A program made the translations under genes and the position numbers. The notes below the pieces were generated by a model that was not told the DNA's origin, did not search any database, and saw only the letters and a program-made list of their open reading frames with translations. Below are positions 490-14,542 of a stretch of DNA of 64,000 bases, piece after piece. Numbering within the stretch: the stretch's first letter is position 1; the number at the start of each line of letters is the position of its first letter. The stretch is from Dyella sp. EPa41 (GTDB lineage Bacteria > Pseudomonadota > Gammaproteobacteria > Xanthomonadales > Rhodanobacteraceae). The DNA lies in contig NZ_BCPR01000014.1 of assembly GCF_016586165.1 (NCBI RefSeq), positions 1 through 64,000 on the forward strand, written 5' to 3'.

Positions 490-2214
490 TCACTGATAAA
501 CATGCAACCGATCAAACACCCACGCGTGATACGACTTCACCAACCCCGGCTGCGCGCAATCCGTGTACAGGCCATTGCACCGCGTCCGCAACGCGATCGC
601 CGCTGAAAAATACGGATCGGTCGGCAAGTCCGCCGCCTGCAGCACCATGCTCGGCAGCATCGCGATGTCGAGCAAGGGATAGCGCGGCAACGCTGCACCC
701 CGGAAGTTGCTCTTGATCATGTAGTACGTCAGGTAGTCCTTGTACTGCGCGAGGCCATCGGGCCAGGTGCGCGGCATCTCGCGGATCAGGCCGCTGAAGG
801 ACGGCTGGTGGTCGCCGAAGTGCACGATCACCGTCGGCTGCGCGCGATCCAGGAAGTCATGCTCCAGCCCGCGCATCGCCACGTCGGAATTGTGCAGGTT
901 CGACAGGTAGGTGTTGAAGTTCACCGATTCGCGTGTCGGCAGGCCCTTCAACAGGCCTTTGTTGAACGGCGCCGGCAACGACGAGATCGGGTCGGTGTCG
1001 TGCGGCCCGTGCTGCGCCAACGTGAGGATCATGATGAAGACCGGCTGCCCCGGCTTCTTCACCTTGTCGTAGACTCGCTTGGCCGCGGTGAACATCTGCG
1101 CGTCGGTTTCTTCCCACTCCTCCAGGCCAAGCTGGCCGGCGTCGTAGAACTGGTCGAAGCCGTAGGCCGTGTACGCGTTGCGCCCGTTGAGGAAAGCGCC
1201 ATTGGTTGGATAGATCGCCACCGTGAGGTAACCCAGGCGCTGCAGCTGGCGCGGCAGCGAATCCTGCACGTGCGGCGCGAGCACGTAGGGCGCATACATG
1301 CCGCCCGGCCCGAAGATGTCCTGCGGCATGCCGGTAAGCGTGGCGAACTCGCTGACCCAGGTGCCGCCGCCGAAGGTGTGCACGCGCAGCGGGCCGGTGG
1401 CGCGCGTGCGCGCATCGGCCTTGAACATGCCCACGCGGCACTCCGGGATGTTGCACTGGCTGAAGTTGGACGGATTGAAGGTGCTTTCTTCCAGCACCTG
1501 CACGATGTCCGGATAGTTCTCCGGCGTGCGCGGCGTGGCGGCCGGGAAACCCGATGCGGTGGCGCCCCAGTCCTGTTCGGCGATGGCGTCGTCTGCCATG
1601 TCGGGCATCTGGACGTCCGAATCACTGAAGTTGACGAAGAAGTTGGTGATCTGCGCGTCGTCGGAGAGTTTTTCCCATACGTTTCTCGCATGCACCTCGG
1701 CGAACGGGCCGTTCGGCAACAGGCACACCCAGAACGCTACCGCCCACAATGCCACGCCACCCAGGCGCATCGACCACGCACGGCGCCGGCTCATGTGCGA
1801 AAGCATGCGGCGATCGAAGCGCCACACGGCCCATAATGCGAGCGGTGTCAGCACGCCCACGGCCAACGTCAGCATCCACAGGTGCGGGTAGTGCCCCAGC
1901 GTCTCCAGCAGGCTGCTGCGGGCGTAGTAGATGAAGTCCGCCGGCATCAGCGGCGAGTCCAGGTAACGCAGCTTGAGTATGGACAGGAAATTGAGCGCGA
2001 GGAAAAGACCGCCGCTCACCACCAGCGCGGTGGCGGGGCGCGCGAAGGCGAACAGCAGGATGCCGAACGCGCACACCATCAGGGCGATCACGAACGCCTG
2101 CTGCAGCAAGGCGGGCTCACGCAGGGCCGTCATGCTGACGCAGAACACGAAAAAGCAGGCGGCAAAGAGCCAGGGCCCACTCCTTCGCAAAAAGCGTAGC
2201 GATGATTGCGGCAT
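490..2214 (-). CDS. LTA synthase/OpgB-like sulfatase-fold transferase, membrane-anchored
   Basis: This is a membrane protein of about 574 residues. The N-terminal third carries about five hydrophobic segments, and the rest is a periplasmic alkaline-phosphatase/sulfatase-fold domain. The likely nucleophile is the Thr in 'LEESTFNPS' near residue 240; 'LAQHGPHD' and 'FGDHQPS' (about residue 466) are metal-site motifs. Relatives are lipoteichoic acid synthases and the phosphoglycerol transferase OpgB, so phosphoglycerol or phosphoethanolamine transfer to a periplasmic glycan is the likely role, but the substrate is not readable from sequence. The start is ambiguous: ATG 2214 gives a clean N terminus ('MPQSSLRF'), and ATG 2247 adds 11 residues. 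It diverges from the cpdB-like gene across 184 bp. Confidence 0.82.
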   Translation of the reverse strand: MPQSSLRFLRRSGPWLFAACFFVFCVSMTALREPALLQQAFVIALMVCAFGILLFAFARPATALVVSGGLFLALNFLSILKLRYLDSPLMPADFIYYARSSLLETLGHYPHLWMLTLAVGVLTPLALWAVWRFDRRMLSHMSRRRAWSMRLGGVALWAVAFWVCLLPNGPFAEVHARNVWEKLSDDAQITNFFVNFSDSDVQMPDMADDAIAEQDWGATASGFPAATPRTPENYPDIVQVLEESTFNPSNFSQCNIPECRVGMFKADARTRATGPLRVHTFGGGTWVSEFATLTGMPQDIFGPGGMYAPYVLAPHVQDSLPRQLQRLGYLTVAIYPTNGAFLNGRNAYTAYGFDQFYDAGQLGLEEWEETDAQMFTAAKRVYDKVKKPGQPVFIMILTLAQHGPHDTDPISSLPAPFNKGLLKGLPTRESVNFNTYLSNLHNSDVAMRGLEHDFLDRAQPTVIVHFGDHQPSFSGLIREMPRTWPDGLAQYKDYLTYYMIKSNFRGAALPRYPLLDIAMLPSMVLQAADLPTDPYFSAAIALRTRCNGLYTDCAQPGLVKSYHAWVFDRLHVYQ

Positions 2215-2398
2215 ATGGTTCGGCCCCCTGTTCGGCCTGGCTGTCATTCGGCCGCAATTCTACGGTCTCCAAACGGTCACATGCACAACGGTGGGCAACG
2301 GCAGGATGGCGCCACGACGCGGTTCAGCGCCGGTTTCGCCGCCCACGGCCCGGCCTATCTGGTAGCGTGCGCAGTCCCCGACAGGAACAGGTCCCCTC

Positions 2399-4573: not shown

Positions 4574-5353
4574 ATGAAGCCCTTGCTGGACAACAAGCAA
4601 ATGCTGGCTATTCGGCGGCGATTGCTTCAGATGCACCACGAAAGCGGGGTGGGCCATATTGGCGGCAACCTGTCCGCCATCGATGTGTTGTCCCTGCTGT
4701 TCAACGAATACCTGGGCGCCCAGGATGCCTTCATCCTGTCCAAGGGCCATTCCGCCGGCGCGCTCTATGTCGCGCTGTGGAGCGTGGGGAAGTTGGGTGA
4801 CGAAGACCTGCGCATGTTCCACCGGGACGACAGCCTTCTGGCAGGGCATCCACCTGCTCGAGGCATTGCAGAAATCATGTTCGCCACTGGCAGCCTGGGG
4901 CATGGGCTGTCATTGGCAGCAGGCACCGCTCTCGCAAAGCGCTTGAAGGGAGAGAACGGCCAGACGTTCTGCCTGACGTCGGATGGTGAATGGCAGGAAG
5001 GCTCGACCTGGGAGGCACTTATATTCGCGGCCCACCGTCGGCTTACGAATTTGACGATCCTGATAGACCACAATCGGCTCCAAGGCTTTGGCGGCACCGA
5101 AGACGTGGCATCAATGTGCCCGTTGCAAGAGCGGCTGAAGGGCTTTGATGTCGACGTACAGGCTGTTTCCGGCCATGACCTCGACGCCATGCGCAACGTG
5201 CTGGCATTACCCTCTCGGCGCCTGAGGATCGTCGTATTGGAAACCACCAAGGGCAAAGGTGTTTCATTCATGGAGAACCGAATGGAGTGGCATTACCTGC
5301 CACTCAAGGAACCCCATTACACCTTGGCGCTTGAGGAACTCGGCCTCACATGA
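4574..5353 (+). CDS. Transketolase, N-terminal (TPP-pyrophosphate) subunit of a two-subunit enzyme
   Basis: The protein has 259 residues from ATG 4574 and covers only the first half of a normal transketolase of about 660 residues. It contains 'SGVGHIGGNLSAIDVL', 'LSKGHSAGALYVAL' and the thiamine diphosphate motif running from 'SDGEWQEG' to 'DHNRLQG' (Ser replaces the usual first Gly of GDG). Its stop overlaps the next start (ATGA), so the two halves are translationally coupled and probably form a heteromer. Split transketolases are known from archaea, apulose metabolism and some polysaccharide clusters. The presence of sugar-modifying genes just downstream argues for making a special sugar rather than for the pentose phosphate pathway. 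An upstream in-frame start at 4511 is possible but less likely. Confidence 0.88.
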   Translation: MKPLLDNKQMLAIRRRLLQMHHESGVGHIGGNLSAIDVLSLLFNEYLGAQDAFILSKGHSAGALYVALWSVGKLGDEDLRMFHRDDSLLAGHPPARGIAEIMFATGSLGHGLSLAAGTALAKRLKGENGQTFCLTSDGEWQEGSTWEALIFAAHRRLTNLTILIDHNRLQGFGGTEDVASMCPLQERLKGFDVDVQAVSGHDLDAMRNVLALPSRRLRIVVLETTKGKGVSFMENRMEWHYLPLKEPHYTLALEELGLT

Positions 5354-6255
5354 GAAAGCAACTGTGCGACACCTTGGTCTCCCAGGCGGACAACCCCAGG
5401 ATGGTCTTTCTTACCGGCGACCTGGGCTTTATGGCACTTGAGCCGCTGCAGGTGGCTCTCGGCGAACGCTTCATCAATGCCGGCGTCGCCGAACAGAACA
5501 TGGTTTCCGTTGCCGCCGCCATGGCGCGCCAGGGGTTCGATGCCTGGGTCTATAGCATCGCACCGTTCTGTTATGCGCGGCCATTTGAGCAAATCCGCAA
5601 CGACGTGACCTTCCACAACCTGCCCGTTCGCCTGATCGGCAATGGCGGGGGTTATGCCTATGGCGTGATGGGACCGACCCATCACGCCATCGAGGACTAT
5701 GGCGTCCTCCTGACATTGCCCAACCTCTGCGTTTATGCGCCGGTATTCGACGAAGACGTCCCCGCGGCCATCGAATCCGCGAGCAAGGAAACCAGAGCGG
5801 TCTACCTGCGACTCGGTCGAGGCGAGCAACCCGCGGGCTACGCCATCCCGGACTATTCGCCTTGGCGGCAGCTGGTGCAGGGCGAAGGAATACCGGTGAT
5901 AGCCGTCGGCCCCCTGGCCACGACGTATATTTCCGCCTTGCAGGACCTTTCGGACAGCCGACGCCCCAACTTGTGGGCGGTGGCGGAACTTCCGCTCTCG
6001 CGCCATGGGCTTCCCGAGGCACTGGAGCAAGCCATCAGGACTCATCAGGTGATCTGCGTCGCCGAGGAACATGTTGCACACGGTGGCTTTGCATCCGAAC
6101 TCAGCCTATACCTGATGCAGCGTGGCGTCTCGGCACGCATGCTGCACCTTCATGCCAAGGCCCACCACTACGACAGGTACGGATCGCAGGCCTATCTTCG
6201 CGCGCAGTCCGGACTTGATCCGCAAAGCCTTCTGGATACCATTCAAGGCACGTAA
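5350..6255 (+). CDS. Transketolase, C-terminal (pyrimidine-binding) subunit
   Basis: The 301-residue partner of the previous gene corresponds to the PYR and C-terminal domains of transketolase. The catalytic glutamate that activates thiamine diphosphate is in 'NAGVAEQNMVSVAAAMA'. Donor-site elements include 'YGVMGPTHHAIEDYG', with the His pair usual in the family. The ATGA overlap with the N-terminal subunit at 5350-5353 and a gap of only 6 bp to the next gene (6262) indicate one operon. The reaction would be transfer of a two-carbon ketol unit; donor and acceptor are unknown. It is lower in GC by eye than the flanking housekeeping operons. Confidence 0.88.
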   Translation: MRKQLCDTLVSQADNPRMVFLTGDLGFMALEPLQVALGERFINAGVAEQNMVSVAAAMARQGFDAWVYSIAPFCYARPFEQIRNDVTFHNLPVRLIGNGGGYAYGVMGPTHHAIEDYGVLLTLPNLCVYAPVFDEDVPAAIESASKETRAVYLRLGRGEQPAGYAIPDYSPWRQLVQGEGIPVIAVGPLATTYISALQDLSDSRRPNLWAVAELPLSRHGLPEALEQAIRTHQVICVAEEHVAHGGFASELSLYLMQRGVSARMLHLHAKAHHYDRYGSQAYLRAQSGLDPQSLLDTIQGT

Positions 6256-6261
6256 TCCGAC

Positions 6262-8226
6262 ATGACCGAACTGATTCAGCACATCCGCGCGTTGAAGGGT
6301 CCCATCCTGGTGACTGGTGCCGCGGGGTTTGTGGGAGCAAACCTGTTCCGGACGATCTTCGAACAGCGTCAGGACGTGCATGCCGTGGTGCAGACGGTCC
6401 GCAACTGGCGGCTGGACGGCATTCCGGACGCCAACATCGCCGTCGCAAACGTCAACGATTCGGCGGCATTGAAGCACCTTGTAGACCAGATCGCACCGCA
6501 AACCGTATTCGATTGCGTCGCTTACGGCGCCTACTCCTTCGAGCGCGACCCGACCCTCATCTACGAGACGAACTTCCAGTCGATCGTTGGCTTGACCATG
6601 CTGTTGAACGAGCGCGGCGTGTCCGCCTTCGTGCATGCCGGCACTTCCTCGGAATACGGCAGCAATAGCGCCGCACCTGTCGAAGATGCAGTATGCCAGC
6701 CGAACAGCCACTACGCCGTGTCCAAGGTCGCGACCGCGGAATATCTCCGCTACATGGGCAAACATCACCGCTTTCCTTGCGTCAACCTCCGGCTGTATTC
6801 GGTCTATGGACCGCTGGAGGATGGCTCGCGACTGATCCCTAATCTGCTCCACAAGGCGCTGTCCGGCAGCTTGCCACCGTTCGTCGATGCGCGTACTTCG
6901 CGCGATTTCGTGCATGTGGACGACGTCTGTCGCGCATTCATCTACGCCGCAGTGAAAATGAATCCGGACCTGTATGGCGAGAGCCTCAACATCGGCTCCG
7001 GCAAGCGTACGACCATCGCCGAGCTGGCCGAGCTGACGCGCCGCGTTTTCAAGATTGAAGAGCAGCCCGTTTTTGGCAGCATGCATGCCCGTGCATGGGA
7101 TCTCGCCGACTGGTATGCCAACCCGTCCAAGGCCGATCGGATGTTGGATTGGAAGGCAGAGATAGGTCTCGCCGATGGACTGCGCGCCACGAGCACCTGG
7201 GTGGAAACCCTATCCGAAGATGACCTCAAGGGCTTGTCCAAGCATGCCACCAGCAAAAGGCGACGGAGCATTTCGGCAATCATCGCCTGCTACAAGGACG
7301 AACCCGCCATTCCTGTGATGTACGAGCGCCTCAAGGCCACGTTCGAACGGCTGCGTATCGATCACGAAATCATCTTCGTCAATGACTGCAGCCCTGACGA
7401 CAGTGCCGCGGTGATCAGGGATATCTCCGCTCGGGATCCCAAGGTCATCGGCATCTCGCATTCGCGCAACTTCGGCTCGCAGATGGCATTTCGCAGCGGC
7501 ATGGAGCTGGCTTCCAAGGACGCCGTGGTGCTATTGGACGGCGACCTGCAGGACCCGCCAGACCTGATCGAAGCCTTCTACGAAAAATGGGAAGATGGCT
7601 TTGACGTGGTCTATGGGCGCCGCGTCCAGCGCGAGATGCCGTGGCACTGGGGGCTGCTGTACAAGGCCTTCTACCGGGTCTTTGCGGCCTTCAGCTACGT
7701 CAAGATCCCACTCGACGCCGGTGATTTCTCCCTGATCGATCGGAAGGTCGTTCAGTGGCTGCTTTCGTGCCCGGAGCGTGACTTGTTCATGCGCGGATTG
7801 CGCGCCTACGTTGGATTCAAGCAGGCCGGCGTGGACTACGTGCGCCCAGAGCGGATGTTCGGCAGCACAACCAACACACTCATCAAGAACATCGACTGGG
7901 CGAAGAAAGGCATCTTTTCCTTCAGCAACGTCCCGCTGACGCTGCTCACCGCAGCCGGCCTGGCCTTGCTCGGGCTGTCAATCATCGCCGCGATCATTGT
8001 CGTATTGCTTCATGTCGCCTGGCCAAACACCGCCCCACGGGGGACCACAAGCATCCTGATCGGCGTGTTGATGTTCGGCTCTCTGAACCTGTTCGGCATC
8101 GGACTGGTTGGCGAGTACATTGGAAAGATCATGATCGAAGTCAAGGGAAGACCACGACTTATCCGGTCTGCACTGATCAGGCACGGTGTCGTCACAACCC
8201 AGGTGACGAGAGCTGATCCACAGTGA
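6262..8226 (+). CDS. Fusion: NAD-dependent sugar epimerase/dehydratase + GtrB-type glycosyltransferase
   Basis: This 654-residue protein joins two enzymes that are normally separate. Residues about 10-320 are an extended short-chain dehydrogenase with 'VTGAAGFVGANLF' (Rossmann, 18-30) and the catalytic pair Y151/K155 in 'HYAVSKVATAEY'. Residues about 335-550 are a GT2 domain like dolichol-phosphate-mannose synthase and GtrB/ArnC, with 'SAIIACYKDE', 'FVNDCSPDDS', 'LDGDLQDPPDL' and 'VYGRRVQREM'. Two membrane helices follow (about 555-583 and 597-622), ending in 'GEYIGKIMIEVKGRPR', typical of GtrB. I infer that the first half finishes a nucleotide sugar and the second transfers it to undecaprenyl phosphate. 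There is no stop or frameshift at the junction. Confidence 0.88.
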   Translation: MTELIQHIRALKGPILVTGAAGFVGANLFRTIFEQRQDVHAVVQTVRNWRLDGIPDANIAVANVNDSAALKHLVDQIAPQTVFDCVAYGAYSFERDPTLIYETNFQSIVGLTMLLNERGVSAFVHAGTSSEYGSNSAAPVEDAVCQPNSHYAVSKVATAEYLRYMGKHHRFPCVNLRLYSVYGPLEDGSRLIPNLLHKALSGSLPPFVDARTSRDFVHVDDVCRAFIYAAVKMNPDLYGESLNIGSGKRTTIAELAELTRRVFKIEEQPVFGSMHARAWDLADWYANPSKADRMLDWKAEIGLADGLRATSTWVETLSEDDLKGLSKHATSKRRRSISAIIACYKDEPAIPVMYERLKATFERLRIDHEIIFVNDCSPDDSAAVIRDISARDPKVIGISHSRNFGSQMAFRSGMELASKDAVVLLDGDLQDPPDLIEAFYEKWEDGFDVVYGRRVQREMPWHWGLLYKAFYRVFAAFSYVKIPLDAGDFSLIDRKVVQWLLSCPERDLFMRGLRAYVGFKQAGVDYVRPERMFGSTTNTLIKNIDWAKKGIFSFSNVPLTLLTAAGLALLGLSIIAAIIVVLLHVAWPNTAPRGTTSILIGVLMFGSLNLFGIGLVGEYIGKIMIEVKGRPRLIRSALIRHGVVTTQVTRADPQ

Positions 8227-8311
8227 AGCAGGATGTTCTGATTCGCCGCATGCCGATGCTCCCGCAGACGCGGTCATCTTCCTTCGACTGGCAAAAGCCT
8301 GGACGCCTTTG

Positions 8312-9265
8312 ATGCAACGGGATTCCTACCAAGGTAGCACCTCGCTATCGGATCGACCGGAACGAACCTGCCCTGTCTGCGGGAGTGGTCCGGAACATGC
8401 CCGCGCATTTCTCGAGGAACGGATCGATGCTTCGCGTCTCAACCAGTTCAGCTTCGCGTCTCGAAAAGAACCGGAATTCTTCAATTACCGCATGATCCAG
8501 TGCACAACCTGCGATCTGGTCTACGTTGATCGCCCGCCATCGCAGCAAGCGCTGGCGCACGCCTATCACGTGGCTGATTACGACAGCAGCGAGGAAGCGA
8601 ACGACGCAGCTGATGCCTACATGAGGGAGCTGCGCCCGGTACTTGCCCGGTTAAACCGGGATTCTGCCCTGGAAATCGGTACCGGCACGGGTGTCCTCCT
8701 GGACGGACTGGCGGCGGCCGGTTTCAGGCGGCTCGTTGGTATTGAACCCTCTTCCGCTGCCTTTGCAGCTGCCCCGCCACATCGACGCCCCTGGATCAGG
8801 GAGGGCATTTTCCGCGAAGAAGACTTCGAGCCGGAATCCTTCGATCTCGTGTGCTGCTTCATGACACTTGAGCATGTGCGCGACCCAATGGAGATTGCAA
8901 GGTCGGTCTCACGGTTGCTTCGCCCTGGCGGTGCGTTCGTGACGGTAACGCACAATTACAGAAGCGCCATCAACCGGGTGCTTGGACGTCGCTCGCCGAT
9001 CATTGACGTTGAGCATATGCAATTGTTTTCCAACATGAGCATCGGCGAGTTGCTCACCCGCGCAGGCTATGATGAGGTCCAATCCAGGCCATTGGTGAAT
9101 CGCTACGCGCTCGCCTACTGGACTCGCCTGCTGCCATTCCCTTCAACTATCAAACGCCAGTTGATAAGTTTCGAGAACGCGATGGGATTGGGCCAAAGAA
9201 AGCTTTCCTTCAACGTCGGAAACACCATCGCGTCCGGCTTCCGGCCAGCTGATGCAGGAGCTTGA
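8312..9265 (+). CDS. Class I SAM methyltransferase with N-terminal zinc-ribbon-like motif
   Basis: The protein has 317 residues from ATG 8312, after an 85-bp gap. The N terminus has two Cys pairs ('CPVCGSG' and 'CTTCDLVYVD') resembling a zinc-binding module, as in SAM methyltransferases of sugar and polyketide clusters. Residues about 108-220 form the Rossmann SAM-binding domain: 'ALEIGTGTGVLLDGL', 'FDLVCCFMTLEHV', 'LLRPGGAFVTVTHN'. Its place between the GtrB-fusion and gtrA suggests methylation of the same sugar or glycan, which is an inference. It overlaps the next gene by 14 bp. Confidence 0.82.
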   Translation: MQRDSYQGSTSLSDRPERTCPVCGSGPEHARAFLEERIDASRLNQFSFASRKEPEFFNYRMIQCTTCDLVYVDRPPSQQALAHAYHVADYDSSEEANDAADAYMRELRPVLARLNRDSALEIGTGTGVLLDGLAAAGFRRLVGIEPSSAAFAAAPPHRRPWIREGIFREEDFEPESFDLVCCFMTLEHVRDPMEIARSVSRLLRPGGAFVTVTHNYRSAINRVLGRRSPIIDVEHMQLFSNMSIGELLTRAGYDEVQSRPLVNRYALAYWTRLLPFPSTIKRQLISFENAMGLGQRKLSFNVGNTIASGFRPADAGA

Positions 9266-9659
9266 TCGCATGACCGGCGACAAGCGCTTCACTCGGTTTA
9301 TCTTTGTTGGCCTGCTCAACACGCTTTTTGGGCTCGGCGCATACAGCTTTCTCGTGTGGATTGGCCTGCCCATCTGGACCGCGTTGATCGGCGCAGGCAT
9401 CGCCAGCATCGGGTTCAATTTCTTCACCACGGGCCATCTAGTCTTTTCGGACATTGCACCTTCGCGGCTGCCGCGTTTCGTCGGTGCGTATCTTGTCTTG
9501 TACGTCGTCAATTACCTGTCGATTCGCGCCCTCGTGCTTCTTCACCTTGGACCGATTACCAGCCAAGTCATTCTTACGCCTGCCATCGCGATGTTGTCGT
9601 TCTTCGTGATGTCCAGACTCGTCTTCTCGTCCGAAACCGTGAGGAGTGGAGGCGAATGA
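9252..9659 (+). CDS. GtrA family flippase-like membrane protein
   Basis: This protein of 135 residues has four predicted membrane helices and the GtrA start pattern 'RFIFVGLLNTLFGLGAYSF'. GtrA proteins are proposed to flip undecaprenyl-phosphate-linked sugars to the periplasm, working with a GtrB synthase and a GT-C transferase. Both partners lie beside it here (6262-8226 and 9656-11257). The start at 9252 overlaps the methyltransferase end; an internal ATG at 9270 would remove six residues and overlap. The stop overlaps the next start (ATGA at 9656-9659). Confidence 0.87.
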   Translation: MQELDRMTGDKRFTRFIFVGLLNTLFGLGAYSFLVWIGLPIWTALIGAGIASIGFNFFTTGHLVFSDIAPSRLPRFVGAYLVLYVVNYLSIRALVLLHLGPITSQVILTPAIAMLSFFVMSRLVFSSETVRSGGE

Positions 9660-11257
9660 ACGTGTGGCCCACCAAATGGCTGCTAGGCAACGGACCGGGC
9701 ATGGATGAACGCACGCATCGCCGCCTGGCTGTCGTCGGTGCAGCGTCGCTTGGCCTGCTCACCGCGGCCGTGTTCTTCGCCTGGGAAAGTCACCAGGGAC
9801 TGAGCCTGTGGGACGAGGGTTATCTTTGGTATGGCGTGCTGCGCGTGCTGGCCGGAGAGGTCCCGCTTCGAGACTTTCAGTCGTATGACCCGGGGCGCTA
9901 CTACTGGAGCGCCTTGCTCCTGCGGCTCACGGGAACGGAAGGCATCTTGGCCATCCGCTATACCTTGGCGCTGTTCCAGGCCATCGCGCTATCCACAGCC
10001 CTGATCGCACTCGCCGCGATCAGGCCAAGGCGCGGCGGCACTTTCTATCTGCTCGCATGTGCCCTGACGCTTGCAGCATGGATGGTACCTCGCCACAAGT
10101 TGTTCGATGTATCCATTTCAATGGTCCTTGTTTGCGTATCGGCGCTATGGATCGCGAGGCCCTCGCTCAGGAATTACTTCCTGATGGGGTTGGCGCTTGG
10201 CCTGGCCGCCTACTTCGGCAAGAACCATGGGATGTATGGAATGCTGGCCACCGGTGGAATTCTCCTGTCGCAGGCGCTGCACCGAGACAATGGGGGCCGC
10301 CTTTGGCGAGGAATCATGGTCCTCGCCGGGGGAGTGGTGGTCGGCTATACGCCGATGTTCGCCACGATGGGCCTGGCGCCGGGCTTCATGCAGGCTTTTT
10401 TTCGCGGCATCAAGTTCTATGCGGAGATCAGGGCGACGAACCTGCCACTACCCGTACCGTCACCATGGCATGCTGGTTTCTGGAATTCCTTTTCCCCAGA
10501 CAGCCTGAGAGAGCTGGCGGAGGGATGGATCTTCCTTTTCATCCCGGTCTTCGGGTGCCTGTCGGTAATCTACGTGCTGATAGCACGCCGGAAGGGACTG
10601 CCTGTGCGTTCACTGTTTGTGGCAAGCGCCTTCTACGTTCTTCCCTACGCGCACTACGCCTATTCACGGGCCGATCTTGGCCATCTTGCACAAGGCATCT
10701 TCCCAACCCTGATCGGCATCATGGTGCTGTGTGCGTCACTTCCCGCACTACCGCGCGCTCTCGCGCTGATGGCACTGTGCGCGACCAGTCTCTTCACCGC
10801 GGCCCCGCTGCACCCGGGCTGGCAGTGCAAGGTCAACCACAACTGCACGACGGTCGTAGTCGACGGCACCCGGCTTCGTGTCGACGGCGGCACCGCCAGG
10901 GAAGTTGCACTGCTGCGGTCGCTCAAGCGGGACTTCGCGCCAACAGGGCAAAACATCTATGTCACCCCCTTCCTTCCGGGCGCCTATGCGCTGCTCCATT
11001 CAAGATCCCCCACGTGGGAGATCTATGCGCCCTGGCGCCGCGGCGATCAGGTGCAACGCGACGATATCAGGCAGATCGAACTGGCGAAGCCGGCCTTTGT
11101 ACTGATTTACGACATTTCACTGGATGGCCGGGACGAGCTTCGCTTCAGGAACACGCATCCGCTCATCAACAGTTATATCCAGGATCATTACGTCGCTGTC
11201 ACTGGATACACCGACGACCCCGCTTACTTGATCTACCGTCCTCCAGGGGTGCGATAA
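9656..11257 (+). CDS. Multi-spanning GT-C-type glycosyltransferase (PMT/ArnT-like)
   Basis: The protein has 533 residues from ATG 9656, translationally coupled to gtrA. It has about ten hydrophobic helices and a first periplasmic loop with the acidic pair in 'SLWDEGYLWYGVL', the usual catalytic feature of lipid-phosphosugar-dependent GT-C transferases. The C terminus is a soluble domain of about 150 residues containing 'QNIYVTPFLPGAYALL'. In Gtr systems the third gene is a highly variable membrane transferase that moves the flipped sugar onto O-antigen or another glycan; this gene fits that slot. The acceptor is unknown. Confidence 0.78.
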   Translation: MNVWPTKWLLGNGPGMDERTHRRLAVVGAASLGLLTAAVFFAWESHQGLSLWDEGYLWYGVLRVLAGEVPLRDFQSYDPGRYYWSALLLRLTGTEGILAIRYTLALFQAIALSTALIALAAIRPRRGGTFYLLACALTLAAWMVPRHKLFDVSISMVLVCVSALWIARPSLRNYFLMGLALGLAAYFGKNHGMYGMLATGGILLSQALHRDNGGRLWRGIMVLAGGVVVGYTPMFATMGLAPGFMQAFFRGIKFYAEIRATNLPLPVPSPWHAGFWNSFSPDSLRELAEGWIFLFIPVFGCLSVIYVLIARRKGLPVRSLFVASAFYVLPYAHYAYSRADLGHLAQGIFPTLIGIMVLCASLPALPRALALMALCATSLFTAAPLHPGWQCKVNHNCTTVVVDGTRLRVDGGTAREVALLRSLKRDFAPTGQNIYVTPFLPGAYALLHSRSPTWEIYAPWRRGDQVQRDDIRQIELAKPAFVLIYDISLDGRDELRFRNTHPLINSYIQDHYVAVTGYTDDPAYLIYRPPGVR

Positions 11258-11362
11258 AGGCAGCCCACCGCAGAAGGCACCGATGATCGTTAAAATTGAT
11301 TGAAACATCATGGTTGACGCTCCCCGCTGAAAAGCACCTCCAGATACACGTTGGGTACTGCA

Positions 11363-12088
11363 ATGACTGAGACAAAACGAAACGTCGATGTGTTTGACAT
11401 GGACGCTGCGACAAGCGGGGGCTACCTGTATACAAGCCAGTCACGCCTTTCCAGCCGACTGGCCAATGCGCGCATCAGCAGCGCCGTCTTGTCGTCGGTC
11501 GATTTTCGTAACCAGCGCGTGGTCGACATTGGCTGCGGTGACGGCAGTTACACCGTGGAGATTGCGAGCCAGGGGGCGCGGCATGTTACCGGCCTCGATC
11601 CCGCGGCCGTCGCCATCGAGAAAGGTCGGGAACGCGCGCGCGCGCTGGGCCTGGAAAACTGCAGCTTTGAGACACATAGCATTTATGACGTGCCATCAAG
11701 CCTCGATGAGACGTTCGATGTCGCCGTGCTTCGGGGAGTGCTTCATCACCTGAGCGACCCTGCCCAGGCGGTCGCCATTGCGCTGCGCCTCGCCAAATGC
11801 GCCGTTATCCTGGAACCCAACGGGCTCAACCCCGTACTCAAGCTCATCGAGCGTACTTCGCGCTACCACATCGAGCACGAAGAGCAGTCGTTCACGCCGC
11901 GCTCTGCCGCCAGCTGGTGCCGCGAGGGCGGCGCGCGTTCCGTGCGGTGGTCTTTCCTTGGCCTGGTTCCGTTTTTCTGCCCCGACTGGATGGCCAAAAC
12001 AGGCCGCCTGGCCGAGCCAGTGGTCGAGAAGATACCGGGATTACGCGCCATTTCCTGCGGGCAGTACGTAATGGTCGCGGAACGCTAG
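11363..12088 (+). CDS. Class I SAM-dependent methyltransferase
   Basis: The protein has 241 residues from ATG 11363 (a TTG at 11351 would add four). The SAM-binding fold is clear: 'RVVDIGCGDGSYTVEIA', 'HVTGLDPAAVAIEKG', 'FDVAVLRGVLHHLSDP', 'KCAVILEPNGLNPVL'. It follows the glycosyltransferase by 105 bp on the same strand and converges with the YfhO-like gene. A role in methylating the glycan or its lipid intermediate is suggested only by position. Unlike the 8312-9265 enzyme it has no Cys-rich N terminus. Confidence 0.8.
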   Translation: MTETKRNVDVFDMDAATSGGYLYTSQSRLSSRLANARISSAVLSSVDFRNQRVVDIGCGDGSYTVEIASQGARHVTGLDPAAVAIEKGRERARALGLENCSFETHSIYDVPSSLDETFDVAVLRGVLHHLSDPAQAVAIALRLAKCAVILEPNGLNPVLKLIERTSRYHIEHEEQSFTPRSAASWCREGGARSVRWSFLGLVPFFCPDWMAKTGRLAEPVVEKIPGLRAISCGQYVMVAER

Positions 12089-12196
12089 GTTCATTTCATC
12101 TTCATGCGTGGGCGGCAACCACGTGGACATGGCTGTAGCCTTTCTGGCCCTGGCTTGGAACAGAGGTTGCCTGCACCCGCCTACCGGCCCTGATTG

Positions 12197-14542
12197 TCAG
12201 CGCACGACCTGTCTTTGGCTCATGGCGCGACACCGCCAAACCCTCCTGGTCGAAGCGACTACCAGGACCATGCCGATCACGGCAAAACCGGCGTGGCCCA
12301 GCCACGCCCAGCGTATCCAGGGGCGGAACGTCAGCCTCACGGCCTCCGCCCCTGGCGGCAGGACAATGCCTTCGTAGGCGCCATTGACGACCACCGGTCG
12401 CGCACTCACCCAACGGCCCTGCACGCGAACCTTCGTCAGCCAATTGGCGTTGTAGGCCTGGCTCACGACCAACAATGAGTCTTTGTCCGAGCCTACGGTG
12501 AGTTGCAACTCAATCTTGTCGCCGCGATCACTCAGTACCTTGGCAGTGTCCTTTTCGACGACGGGCGAATCCGTGAGTTTCATGCCCATGTCGCCTTCGA
12601 CGATATGGTCCATGGGAATACGGACATACGCCCCCCAGCGAACCAGGACTTTGTAGACGAGCAATCCGCTGAAGTTGCCCTGGAGTACGACCATCGGCGA
12701 ACTCAATGGTTGTCTCGTCACCAGCGCGCCAATGTTTGCCAACATGAAATCAGCGGAGCCAATACTGGCGGCGTCGATGACTCTATTGGTCCGCCCGTAG
12801 TTCTCGCTTTCGCCTCCAAGTCGCCGGATGAGGTCCTGGTAGCGCACGGGGGACAGACTGTCGTAGGAATGTATGGAACGCAGTGACATTTGAACGTTCA
12901 AGTTCGCCGGTACGAAGTCTTCCGCGGACTTCAGCACCGCGTAACGCGATCCATCGGCGAGCAACGCCTGTAACTCCGTGGTCGCCGGAGAGGATTGGGC
13001 AATGGAACTGCGAGACTGAACGAGAAGCTGATGCCGATCGAAGACGAACAAGTGCACGATCACAACGGCGAGGAAGAGACTGATCCAGCGTCTTTGCAAT
13101 GCCATCCAAAGCACTGGCAGGTAGAACGCTAGCAGGAGCGTTGCCCGGCCATCAAAGTGACCTTGCATATGAATCGATGCGGCAACGGCATTGGCGAGAA
13201 GGAGCGCGTAGAGCAATGTCGCGAGCAATAGACGCCTGGCGTTGGCGCAATCTTCTCCAGCTTCAACCTGCAATGACACCCGCTCTGCAGGGCGGCTCAA
13301 CGCATCCATGCTGATGGCGGCGATCAGGCCAAGAGGAATGACGGCCTGCACGCTGGGAACGGAACGCGAGATTCCCAGGCCCAAGTGCTGCACGGCAAAT
13401 GCAAAAATCCAAGGAACTGTATCAGCAGCGACCAGTATCGCCACCGCGAGCCACCATCCCCACGTACGGCGCCATGGCGCGGCACATAGCAGAAACGTAA
13501 TGTAGGGCGCTACGCTACGTCCGTTGAAGAGCGAAGGGAACTCGGGCGAGATCGGATCACCGAATACCTGAGGGAAGGTCCAGAAGGCCAGGAAACGCTG
13601 CCAATCCCAAGTACTGGACATCGGGGGAATGGTTGCCCGCAGGAACTCGACACTGGGATGCATCCGTGCGGACTGCTTGGTCGTGACCCAGGTATCGATT
13701 AATGCGGGAAGCGCAGCCATGAGGCCAAGCAGAGCTGCGGACGCCAGCCCAATCGTCATCTGCGTGAGGTGCCCCTTGCCCCCGGGAAAAACCGGAAGTC
13801 GCAGATACGTATAGACAAGAAAGCCGGCCACCAGATACGCGTAGTACAACACCATCACTGGATACGCCGACATGGTCAGGCTGTACACCGAGAATGCGAT
13901 GACCACCCATGACAGCATGTCGCCGCGTCGCACATACCCTACCAGCCCATACAGCGCAGCCAATACCCAACCATAGGCCGCGGCAAACATAGGGAATGTG
14001 GCCCAGTAGATCAGGCTGGGCGACAGACCCAGTGACAACGACGCGACAAGCGCGGCCGCAGGCGAAAGAGTGAGCTCCCGCGCCAGGAGAAAGGCAAAAG
14101 CTCCTGTGAAGAAAGCCGCCAATACGGCGATCCACGTAACATAGACAAATGCATCATCGGTGAACTTGGAGATGATCCAATTGGGGAGGTACGCGGGACT
14201 CAAGCCCGACATGTGGCCTGTTGGCCGCCCAAGCTCGTTGAATGGCGTCCAGATGGTGATCCAGCCCGAGCGATCTCCCTCGAGGAAAACCTTGCCTTCG
14301 GTGACATAGGTCAGCGGGTAGTCGCTGAACTTGTAGTTTTCCTTGCGATGACTGTCGGATTGCACATGCGCGTCGAGGAAAAAGTCCTGGCGGCTGGGGG
14401 CGATGACCTTGCCGCCGGTCCAGGCTTGCGCAAAGACGATGAGGAACATCGCCACATACAGAATGAAGAACGGCCCATGCCTGGGTTGTCGAACGTGCGA
14501 AAGGATGCCGAAAGGGCCCATCTTTGCTTCCTTTAGAAACAC
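12197..14542 (-). CDS. Large polytopic membrane protein, YfhO-like
   Basis: This protein has 781 residues, or 774 from the second ATG at 14521. About a dozen hydrophobic segments fill the first two thirds. The C-terminal domain has the pattern seen in YfhO-family proteins: a Tyr/Trp-rich segment 'AYNANWLTKVRVQG', then 'LPPGAEAVRLTFRPW', then a last helix. The first periplasmic loop contains 'FNELGRPTGHMSGLSP'. YfhO relatives take part in glycosylating cell-surface polymers (lipoteichoic acid in Gram-positives). Here it is convergent with the methyltransferase and probably marks the far end of the glycan locus. The precise function cannot be stated. Confidence 0.7.
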   Translation of the reverse strand: MFLKEAKMGPFGILSHVRQPRHGPFFILYVAMFLIVFAQAWTGGKVIAPSRQDFFLDAHVQSDSHRKENYKFSDYPLTYVTEGKVFLEGDRSGWITIWTPFNELGRPTGHMSGLSPAYLPNWIISKFTDDAFVYVTWIAVLAAFFTGAFAFLLARELTLSPAAALVASLSLGLSPSLIYWATFPMFAAAYGWVLAALYGLVGYVRRGDMLSWVVIAFSVYSLTMSAYPVMVLYYAYLVAGFLVYTYLRLPVFPGGKGHLTQMTIGLASAALLGLMAALPALIDTWVTTKQSARMHPSVEFLRATIPPMSSTWDWQRFLAFWTFPQVFGDPISPEFPSLFNGRSVAPYITFLLCAAPWRRTWGWWLAVAILVAADTVPWIFAFAVQHLGLGISRSVPSVQAVIPLGLIAAISMDALSRPAERVSLQVEAGEDCANARRLLLATLLYALLLANAVAASIHMQGHFDGRATLLLAFYLPVLWMALQRRWISLFLAVVIVHLFVFDRHQLLVQSRSSIAQSSPATTELQALLADGSRYAVLKSAEDFVPANLNVQMSLRSIHSYDSLSPVRYQDLIRRLGGESENYGRTNRVIDAASIGSADFMLANIGALVTRQPLSSPMVVLQGNFSGLLVYKVLVRWGAYVRIPMDHIVEGDMGMKLTDSPVVEKDTAKVLSDRGDKIELQLTVGSDKDSLLVVSQAYNANWLTKVRVQGRWVSARPVVVNGAYEGIVLPPGAEAVRLTFRPWIRWAWLGHAGFAVIGMVLVVASTRRVWRCRAMSQRQVVR

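Follow-up and report, generated by a model that had tools for sequence, protein, structure and literature searches.

A split transketolase linked to a dehydrogenase-glycosyltransferase fusion in a multi-phylum gene module: a possible route to branched surface sugars

Introduction

Gtr systems, which consist of GtrA, GtrB and a variable GT-C protein, classically transfer glucose onto the O-antigen. Here we analyzed positions 1 to 64,000 of contig NZ_BCPR01000014.1 (the whole 64,000-nucleotide stretch, hereafter the window) from Dyella sp. EPa41, a Dyella-like member of the Rhodanobacteraceae with a genome of 4.92 Mb, and focused on a run of genes that resembles a Gtr system, with genes for GtrA, for a polytopic protein of the variable kind and for a GtrB-type family 2 glycosyltransferase (GT2) that has two C-terminal helices. 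Unlike a Gtr system, however, this locus brings its own sugar-making enzymes, i.e., a two-subunit (split) transketolase, TktN and TktC, and a short-chain dehydrogenase/reductase (SDR) fused to the GT2 (SDR-GT2). The GT2 half also resembles ArnC of the Arn pathway (132 bits), and an ArnE/F-like pair is present in the related locus L039, with relatives in L052 and L146 (L and G numbers denote loci and genomes, respectively); yet the window locus has neither ArnA nor ArnB, and the ArnC model cut-off of 529 bits is not reached. We propose, with a probability of roughly 0.55, that the module tktN-tktC-SDR-GT2(-MT1), in which MT1 is a methyltransferase, produces a nucleotide-bound deoxy-sugar with a C2 branch, which is then loaded onto undecaprenyl phosphate.

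By this reading, the module resembles the YerE/YerF pathway to yersiniose (and ErwE, in the case of erwiniose), in that an enzyme dependent on thiamine diphosphate (ThDP) branches a nucleotide-4-keto-deoxysugar for a surface glycan. The resemblance extends to some related split-transketolase loci that carry rfbF-rfbG(-rfbH), which we take to be the genes making the YerE substrate. In the passages of a 2025 review that deal with it, YerE is a decarboxylase-type enzyme that uses pyruvate, and its acceptor is cytidine diphosphate (CDP)-3,6-dideoxy-4-keto-glucose (PMC12247030). The Dyella enzyme, in contrast, is a two-subunit transketolase joined to SDR-GT2, with both chains matching transketolase families best or nearly so, and the window contains no local nucleotide-4-keto-deoxysugar or CDP-sugar genes among the ten proteins scanned.

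A second likeness concerns miharamycin and amipurimycin, for which the same review, in the sections at hand, presents two-gene transketolases as proposed to move a hydroxyacetyl group onto keto sugars and gives 13 genome-mined split transketolases of this type, all from Streptomycetes (PMC12247030). Those are small-molecule clusters, whereas the loci described here are of cell-surface glycan type and belong to several phyla. Excerpts of another study place C4-hydroxyethyl octoses in Gram-negative polysaccharides and name Pau7 as the ketoreductase of the C4 branch in paulomycin (PMC4753412). The Actinoplanes wps-2 exopolysaccharide cluster, as outlined in part of its description, likewise has a methyltransferase alongside genes annotated as N- and C-terminal transketolase, but it also includes DegT aminotransferases and Wzx/Wzy; deletion of the cluster brought no change under the conditions used, and that part of the description gives it no sugar (PMC13390465). 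No published description of the tkt-SDR-GT2 module was found in the open-licence PubMed Central literature, the scope of our search, with subscription papers outside it; within the same literature, the statement of the original prediction, made from the DNA letters alone, that no described Gtr system has its own transketolase is uncontradicted.

A conserved module across phyla

Scanning the genome collection with the SDR-GT2 protein alone as query recovered 37 loci, which span Pseudomonadota, Bacteroidota, Fibrobacterota, Bdellovibrionota, Myxococcota, Patescibacteria and a Vampirovibrionales metagenome-assembled genome (MAG; L059). The gene tktC adjoins SDR-GT2 in 36 of the 37 and tktN in 35, and the misses are contig ends: L050 begins inside SDR-GT2, its other half being L051 of the same strain, and the contig of L047 starts only 119 bp ahead of tktC. 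L058 has MT1 in between, L040 has the pair in divergent orientation, and L029 has only a fragment of tktC. The fusion of SDR to GT2 is present in L023-L049, in L052 and in the L050/L051 pair. In L053-L059 the two are separate genes: L053 and L055-L059 hold unfused tkt, SDR and GT2 genes, and L054 holds tkt and GT2 with no SDR seen. The predicted tie between the transketolase pair and SDR-GT2 is thus borne out, and, as far as the GT2 is concerned, the pair does not stand apart from the gtr genes.

Relatives of MT1 are found in at least 24 of the 37 loci, short contigs included; within the available flanks, GtrA-like proteins are found in at least nine and an ArnE/F-like pair, which can stand in for GtrA, in at least two. 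These counts are lower bounds because many contigs are short. The original prediction included GtrA and the polytopic transferase in the system, but within the available flanks neither is a constant partner, so that the unit is better described as a sugar-making, lipid-loading module than as a Gtr system. The constant unit is tktN-tktC-SDR-GT2(-MT1), whereas the flippase, the transferase and the last methyltransferase vary.

In the tktC tree (75 rows, with pieces of 250 residues or fewer left out, and with a very long outgroup branch that leaves deep joins unsure), fusion-linked pairs fall in one 36-row clade (support 100/99), which also holds L056, L058 and L102. The exception is L040, which has the fusion but whose tktC clusters with those of L059 and further loci of the tkt-MT1-GT2 type, suggesting that the pair was recruited anew. 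In this Fibrobacteres locus (7027-12710), the SDR-GT2 fusion stands with a divergent transketolase pair of the different clade, an apparent replacement.

In the window, the locus comprises seven same-direction genes at 4574-12088 (Table 1), separated from tktN to MT2 by successive gaps of -4, 6, 82, -14, -4 and 93 bp, and its G+C content is 0.594 versus 0.662 in the window outside 4574-14542. Every member of the predicted gene set is present by domain matches, coordinates and gaps of at most 93 bp, and the order is syntenic: cpdB-tktN-tktC-SDR-GT2-MT1-gtrA-polytopic is identical in L023, L144 and L145 of the same genus, as are the flanks (cpdB, sulfatase), with the polytopic gene of L144 split over two reading frames. 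SDR-GT2 occurs in 6 of 61 genomes scanned, all six among the 20 genus members (G000, G002, G004, G006, G010 and G014; that of G004 was counted from two contig pieces). The MT2 type is found in the window, L145 and L146, whereas L023, L144 and L148 carry a different methyltransferase, encoded on the opposite strand, after the polytopic or gtrA gene; in G006 (L146), an ArnE/F-like pair plus MT2 takes the place of gtrA. Genus synteny together with the cross-phylum linkage rules out an operon formed by chance or by assembly artefact.

Table 1. Genes of the Dyella locus, with positions in the window
Feature	Coordinates	Strand	Evidence
tktN, N-terminal ThDP-binding subunit of split transketolase	4574..5353	+	259 aa (amino acids); Transketolase_N 2e-24
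tktC, C-terminal pyrimidine-binding subunit	5350..6255	+	301 aa; Transket_pyr 1.3e-19
SDR (~1-325) fused to GtrB/ArnC-type GT2 (~330-654)	6262..8226	+	Epimerase 2.2e-43; Glycos_transf_2 5e-25
MT1, S-adenosylmethionine-dependent methyltransferase	8309..9265	+	Methyltransf_23 1.8e-23
Small membrane protein of the GtrA type, presumed to flip the lipid-linked sugar	9252..9659	+	PF04138 49.5 bits, cut-off 26.1
Polytopic protein, soluble in its C-terminal part and presumed to be a GT-C glycosyltransferase	9656..11257	+	7 hydrophobic segments (hydropathy)
MT2, second methyltransferase, accessory and exchangeable	11351..12088	+	Methyltransf_31 5.3e-20

Active-site residues of the split transketolase

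TktN and TktC together span the ThDP-binding, pyrimidine and C-terminal domains of transketolase; the TktN domain scan began at the second codon, and the Transketolase_C match of TktC (6e-5, 23.4 bits) lies under the cut-off of 25.9. The nearest solved relatives of both subunits by sequence belong to the split transketolase of Carboxydothermus, namely 6YAK, its N-terminal chain, for TktN (4.8e-47) and 6YAJ for TktC (4e-27), yet the Dyella pair lies in a glycan-type locus. The Dyella genome also encodes full-length transketolases, L060 (999 bits to E. coli TktA) and L062 (679 bits), which makes the split pair an additional enzyme.

We take His26, His66, His100, His261, Asp155, Glu160, Asn185, Glu411 and His473 of TktA to be catalytic residues, and Ser385, His461, Arg520 and Arg358 to be its sugar-phosphate contacts. 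All nine catalytic positions are conserved in 34/34 fused-module rows, in a residue table that excludes tktC pieces up to 140 residues long, such as that of L029, and in which L047 has no tktN to count. The position of His461 is occupied by glycine in 34/34 of these rows and in 41/44 other split pairs, that of Asp469 by methionine in 33/34 and 3/44, respectively, and that of Ser385 by serine in 0/34. TktC of the window carries Gly and Met at the places of His461 and Asp469, where the metabolic split enzyme 6YAJ, as a control, has His and Asp in the tktC alignment; the genome's own transketolase L060, a further control, retains the normal stretch THDSIGLGEDGPTHQ, and E. coli 1-deoxy-D-xylulose 5-phosphate (DXP) synthase (DXS) has Arg at position 461. 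Given that the catalytic positions are kept and those of His461, Asp469 and Ser385 are changed, the residues suggest that TktN/TktC is a working ketol-transferase whose acceptor would be other than an ordinary sugar phosphate. The retained Arg358 may have a role for the donor phosphate.

A much shorter tktC, of only ~158-170 residues, lies between tktN and GT2 in L053, L055 and L057 (Levybacteria/Patescibacteria) and in L054, too short to include the transketolase C-terminal domain.

The SDR-GT2 fusion and its variable partners

In the fusion protein, Epimerase matches residues 15-245 and Glycos_transf_2 residues 338-497, and two C-terminal hydrophobic helices lie at ~565-583 and 598-616. The GT2 half matches sll0501 (5EKP, 1.2e-57), presumably a GtrB, and ArnC (9HWJ, 7.5e-33). 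The SDR half has the Ser/Thr-Tyr-Lys set and shares the motif G[ST]xxEYG with SDRs of rfbFG loci; the acid of 4,6-dehydratases is missing at the aligned position. The motif and the lack of this acid fit a reductase or other oxidoreductase, without settling the role of the SDR. Assigning its function by structure was attempted and given up: the predicted model is good (predicted local distance difference test, pLDDT, 92.8), yet the nearest solved SDRs are mostly uridine diphosphate (UDP)-sugar epimerases with 4,6-dehydratases close behind, i.e., generic 4-epimerases and 4,6-dehydratases.

MT1, a recurrent member of the module, carries an N-terminal CxxC..CxxC pair, and GtrA has three hydrophobic segments. 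The description of the polytopic protein as GT-C-like held up in part: the protein is polytopic and has an N-terminal D-E motif, which we take to resemble that of GT-C proteins, but neither Pfam (down to E 0.01) nor NCBIfam (down to E 0.001) yielded a match, and its AlphaFold model has a mean pLDDT of only 54.9. Its relatives are found only in L023, L144 and L145, among the loci scanned with this protein.

Two neighbors lie on the opposite strand. At 490-2247 (-), adjoining cpdB, is a sulfatase-family membrane protein with weak likeness to lipoteichoic acid synthase, syntenic in L023, L144 and L145. Convergent with the locus at 12197-14542 (-) is a 781-residue polytopic protein with 10 hydrophobic segments, also found beside the L023 locus (1092 bits); Pfam and NCBIfam scans gave no match to it, and it may be another membrane glycosyltransferase.

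Sugar-nucleotide genes near split transketolase pairs

Co-location of some pairs with genes for nucleoside diphosphate (NDP)-4-keto-sugars was computed directly, as were gene content, cross-phylum linkage and the residue changes. In Vibrio hepatarius L039, rmlB-rmlA, both over their NCBIfam cut-offs (TIGR01181 and TIGR01207), end 17 bp before tktN. This rmlB is, by coordinates, the genome's only RmlB match at E 1e-60; the genome has 0 RmlC matches, and its best RmlD-like protein reaches 115 bits against a cut-off of 224 and lies ~18 kb away. The thymidine diphosphate sugar dTDP-4-keto-6-deoxyglucose is therefore probably not used for rhamnose there. RmlB itself is found in 42/45 genomes that carry the module or an unfused relative of it (41 over cut-off); the search for RmlC and RmlD covered 23 of these 45 genomes. 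CDP-glucose as a general substrate of the SDR-GT2 clade was rejected, with a CDP-glucose 4,6-dehydratase match in 14/45 genomes, 13 over cut-off.

Beyond the module, a tktC relative (E 1e-40) occurs in 86/398 Pseudomonadota. In a survey set of 39 loci, made up of the 33 listed matches that rank directly behind the window plus 7 from further down the list, less L079 (a 3.2 kb contig), both rfbF and rfbG are found no more than ~6 kb from tktC in 7/39, and the same holds for 2/3 plasmid loci; these rfbFG-linked pairs represent six lineages (L115-L117 are one genus, as are L120/L125). rmlB is near tktC in 1/39 survey loci and 1/3 plasmid loci, and none of gmd, fcl, arnA and glf was found near tktC above the bit limits used in the 42 survey and plasmid loci. 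On the Methylovirgula plasmid pHY1 (L142, 3943-11681), rfbF-rfbG-SDR-rfbH-tktN-tktC stands beside GT2 and GtrA, with an rmlBCDA set further on, a layout that we read as a CDP-sugar version of the module. L105 combines rfbF-rfbG-tktN-tktC with gtrA, GT2 and a protein that weakly resembles fcl, and on the Paenibacillus plasmid locus L143 (7097-9004) a gene annotated as SDR encodes an SDR fused to tktN, near rfbF-rfbG. A further tktC clade (L111, L118, L119, L121-L123, L126, L127 and L129-L131) has no tested sugar-nucleotide marker above limits nearby.

Proposed pathway

We infer the donor, the product, the SDR role and the final target as follows. RmlA and RmlB, usually encoded elsewhere, would supply dTDP-4-keto-6-deoxyglucose. 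On the evidence of residues and gene context, TktN/TktC would then use a ketose phosphate or hydroxypyruvate as the source of a two-carbon ketol, whose addition to the C4 ketone would create a tertiary alcohol bearing a hydroxyacetyl branch. Reduction of the ketone in this branch by the SDR would leave a dihydroxyethyl group; in some members, the SDR might first make the ketone. The fused GT2, to judge from its similarity to GtrB and ArnC, would move the resulting octose to undecaprenyl phosphate, and MT1 and the variable second methyltransferase would methylate it. Finally, GtrA, or elsewhere the ArnE/F-like pair, would carry the lipid-linked sugar across the membrane, and the polytopic protein is presumed to use it to modify a surface glycan, lipid or protein.

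Discussion

The original prediction held that the transketolase pair and the SDR supply an uncommon ketose or chain-extended sugar for a glycan. The link to a lipid-loaded glycan sugar is supported, but the nature of the sugar is better accounted for otherwise: a C2-branched sugar built on a nucleotide-4-keto-sugar is more likely than a free ketose or chain-extended sugar, because the His461 position is Gly and some pairs lie near rmlAB or rfbFG. For an unbranched pentulose or heptulose, activated elsewhere and loaded by the GT2, speak the intact transketolase architecture and catalytic residues and an Arg358 present in 33/34 rows. We nevertheless regard it as quite improbable, given that the core (tktN, tktC, SDR, GT2 and MT1) includes no kinase or nucleotidyltransferase, that the genome already holds full-length transketolases, that glycine replaces His461 throughout, and that the nucleotidyltransferases near pairs are rmlA, rfbF or, farther off, cpsB/galF-like by the markers used, sugar kinases in the flanks not having been searched for.

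The SDR could also act first, oxidizing an ordinary nucleotide sugar, for instance at C4 of UDP-glucose, with the transketolase trapping the ketone, so that no 4,6-dehydratase would be involved and the product would not be 6-deoxy. Most module loci indeed lack a recognized local dehydratase, the SDR is fused to the transferase, its nearest solved relatives are mostly the epimerases mentioned above, and the miharamycin proposal, as given in part of the review, has a ketone-making oxidoreductase acting before the split transketolase (PMC12247030). In V. hepatarius, however, rmlBA stands directly before tktN with no RmlC match, and the rfbFG loci have an SDR of the same motif alongside a dehydratase; we consider this sequence of steps unlikely. 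We regard as very unlikely that the pair is a carboligase drawing on a different donor, for instance a pyruvate-type enzyme leaving an acetyl branch. TktC does score 81 bits against DXP synthase models versus 71 against transketolase, and TktA His100, tried as a test of donor class, was dropped as non-discriminating, E. coli DXS also having His there; yet TktN is far closer to transketolase (199 bits versus 40 for the dxs model), and both chains match 6YAK/6YAJ best.

Several observations weigh against the branched-sugar reading that we prefer. Local rmlAB is found in only 3/37 module loci (L039, L042 and L052), and rhamnose may explain the rml genes of two of them equally well, L052 having a complete rmlBACD and L042 having rmlA-rmlC-rmlB upstream with rmlD on another contig. 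RmlB is common anyway, in 224/299 Pseudomonadota and 193/239 good ones, a few of the 299 being module genomes; the Fisher p value of 0.004 for 42/45 against this base rate is uncorrected for kinship or phylum, and with the base rate so high the presence of RmlB is permissive, not decisive. The three genomes with no RmlB match are G206 (74% complete), G458 (a 1.0 Mb single-cell genome) and G469 (a fragmented MAG), and the latter two have a CDP-glucose dehydratase. The rfbFG-linked pairs fall outside the module clade, at several places of the tktC tree, and many other survey pairs have no tested marker nearby, or have a DegT aminotransferase, so not all polysaccharide-linked split transketolases need this chemistry. 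At the active site, the phosphate contacts are lost only in part (Arg358 is retained as noted, and Arg520 in 23/34), and the unfused relative L055 retains Asp469. The SDR fold is generic, and, according to a passage of the 2025 review, no enzyme of this kind has been characterized in vitro (PMC12247030).

At a broader level, the module may represent a further ThDP route to C-branched surface sugars, in which a split transketolase adds hydroxyacetyl to nucleotide-4-keto-sugars and is coupled to GtrB-type lipid loading; we give this an even chance. If true, C2 branching by transketolase would be assigned to a multi-phylum gene module, and ketone-accepting transketolases, which part of the 2025 review names as proposed and uncharacterized (PMC12247030), would be found there. 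Bacterial surfaces would then carry a hidden class of octoses that are branched and in many cases methylated, in Pseudomonadota, Bacteroidota, Fibrobacterota, Bdellovibrionota, Myxococcota and Patescibacteria at the least, and tkt-SDR-GT2 with Gly and Met at TktA positions 461 and 469 would provide a gene signature for finding such sugars.

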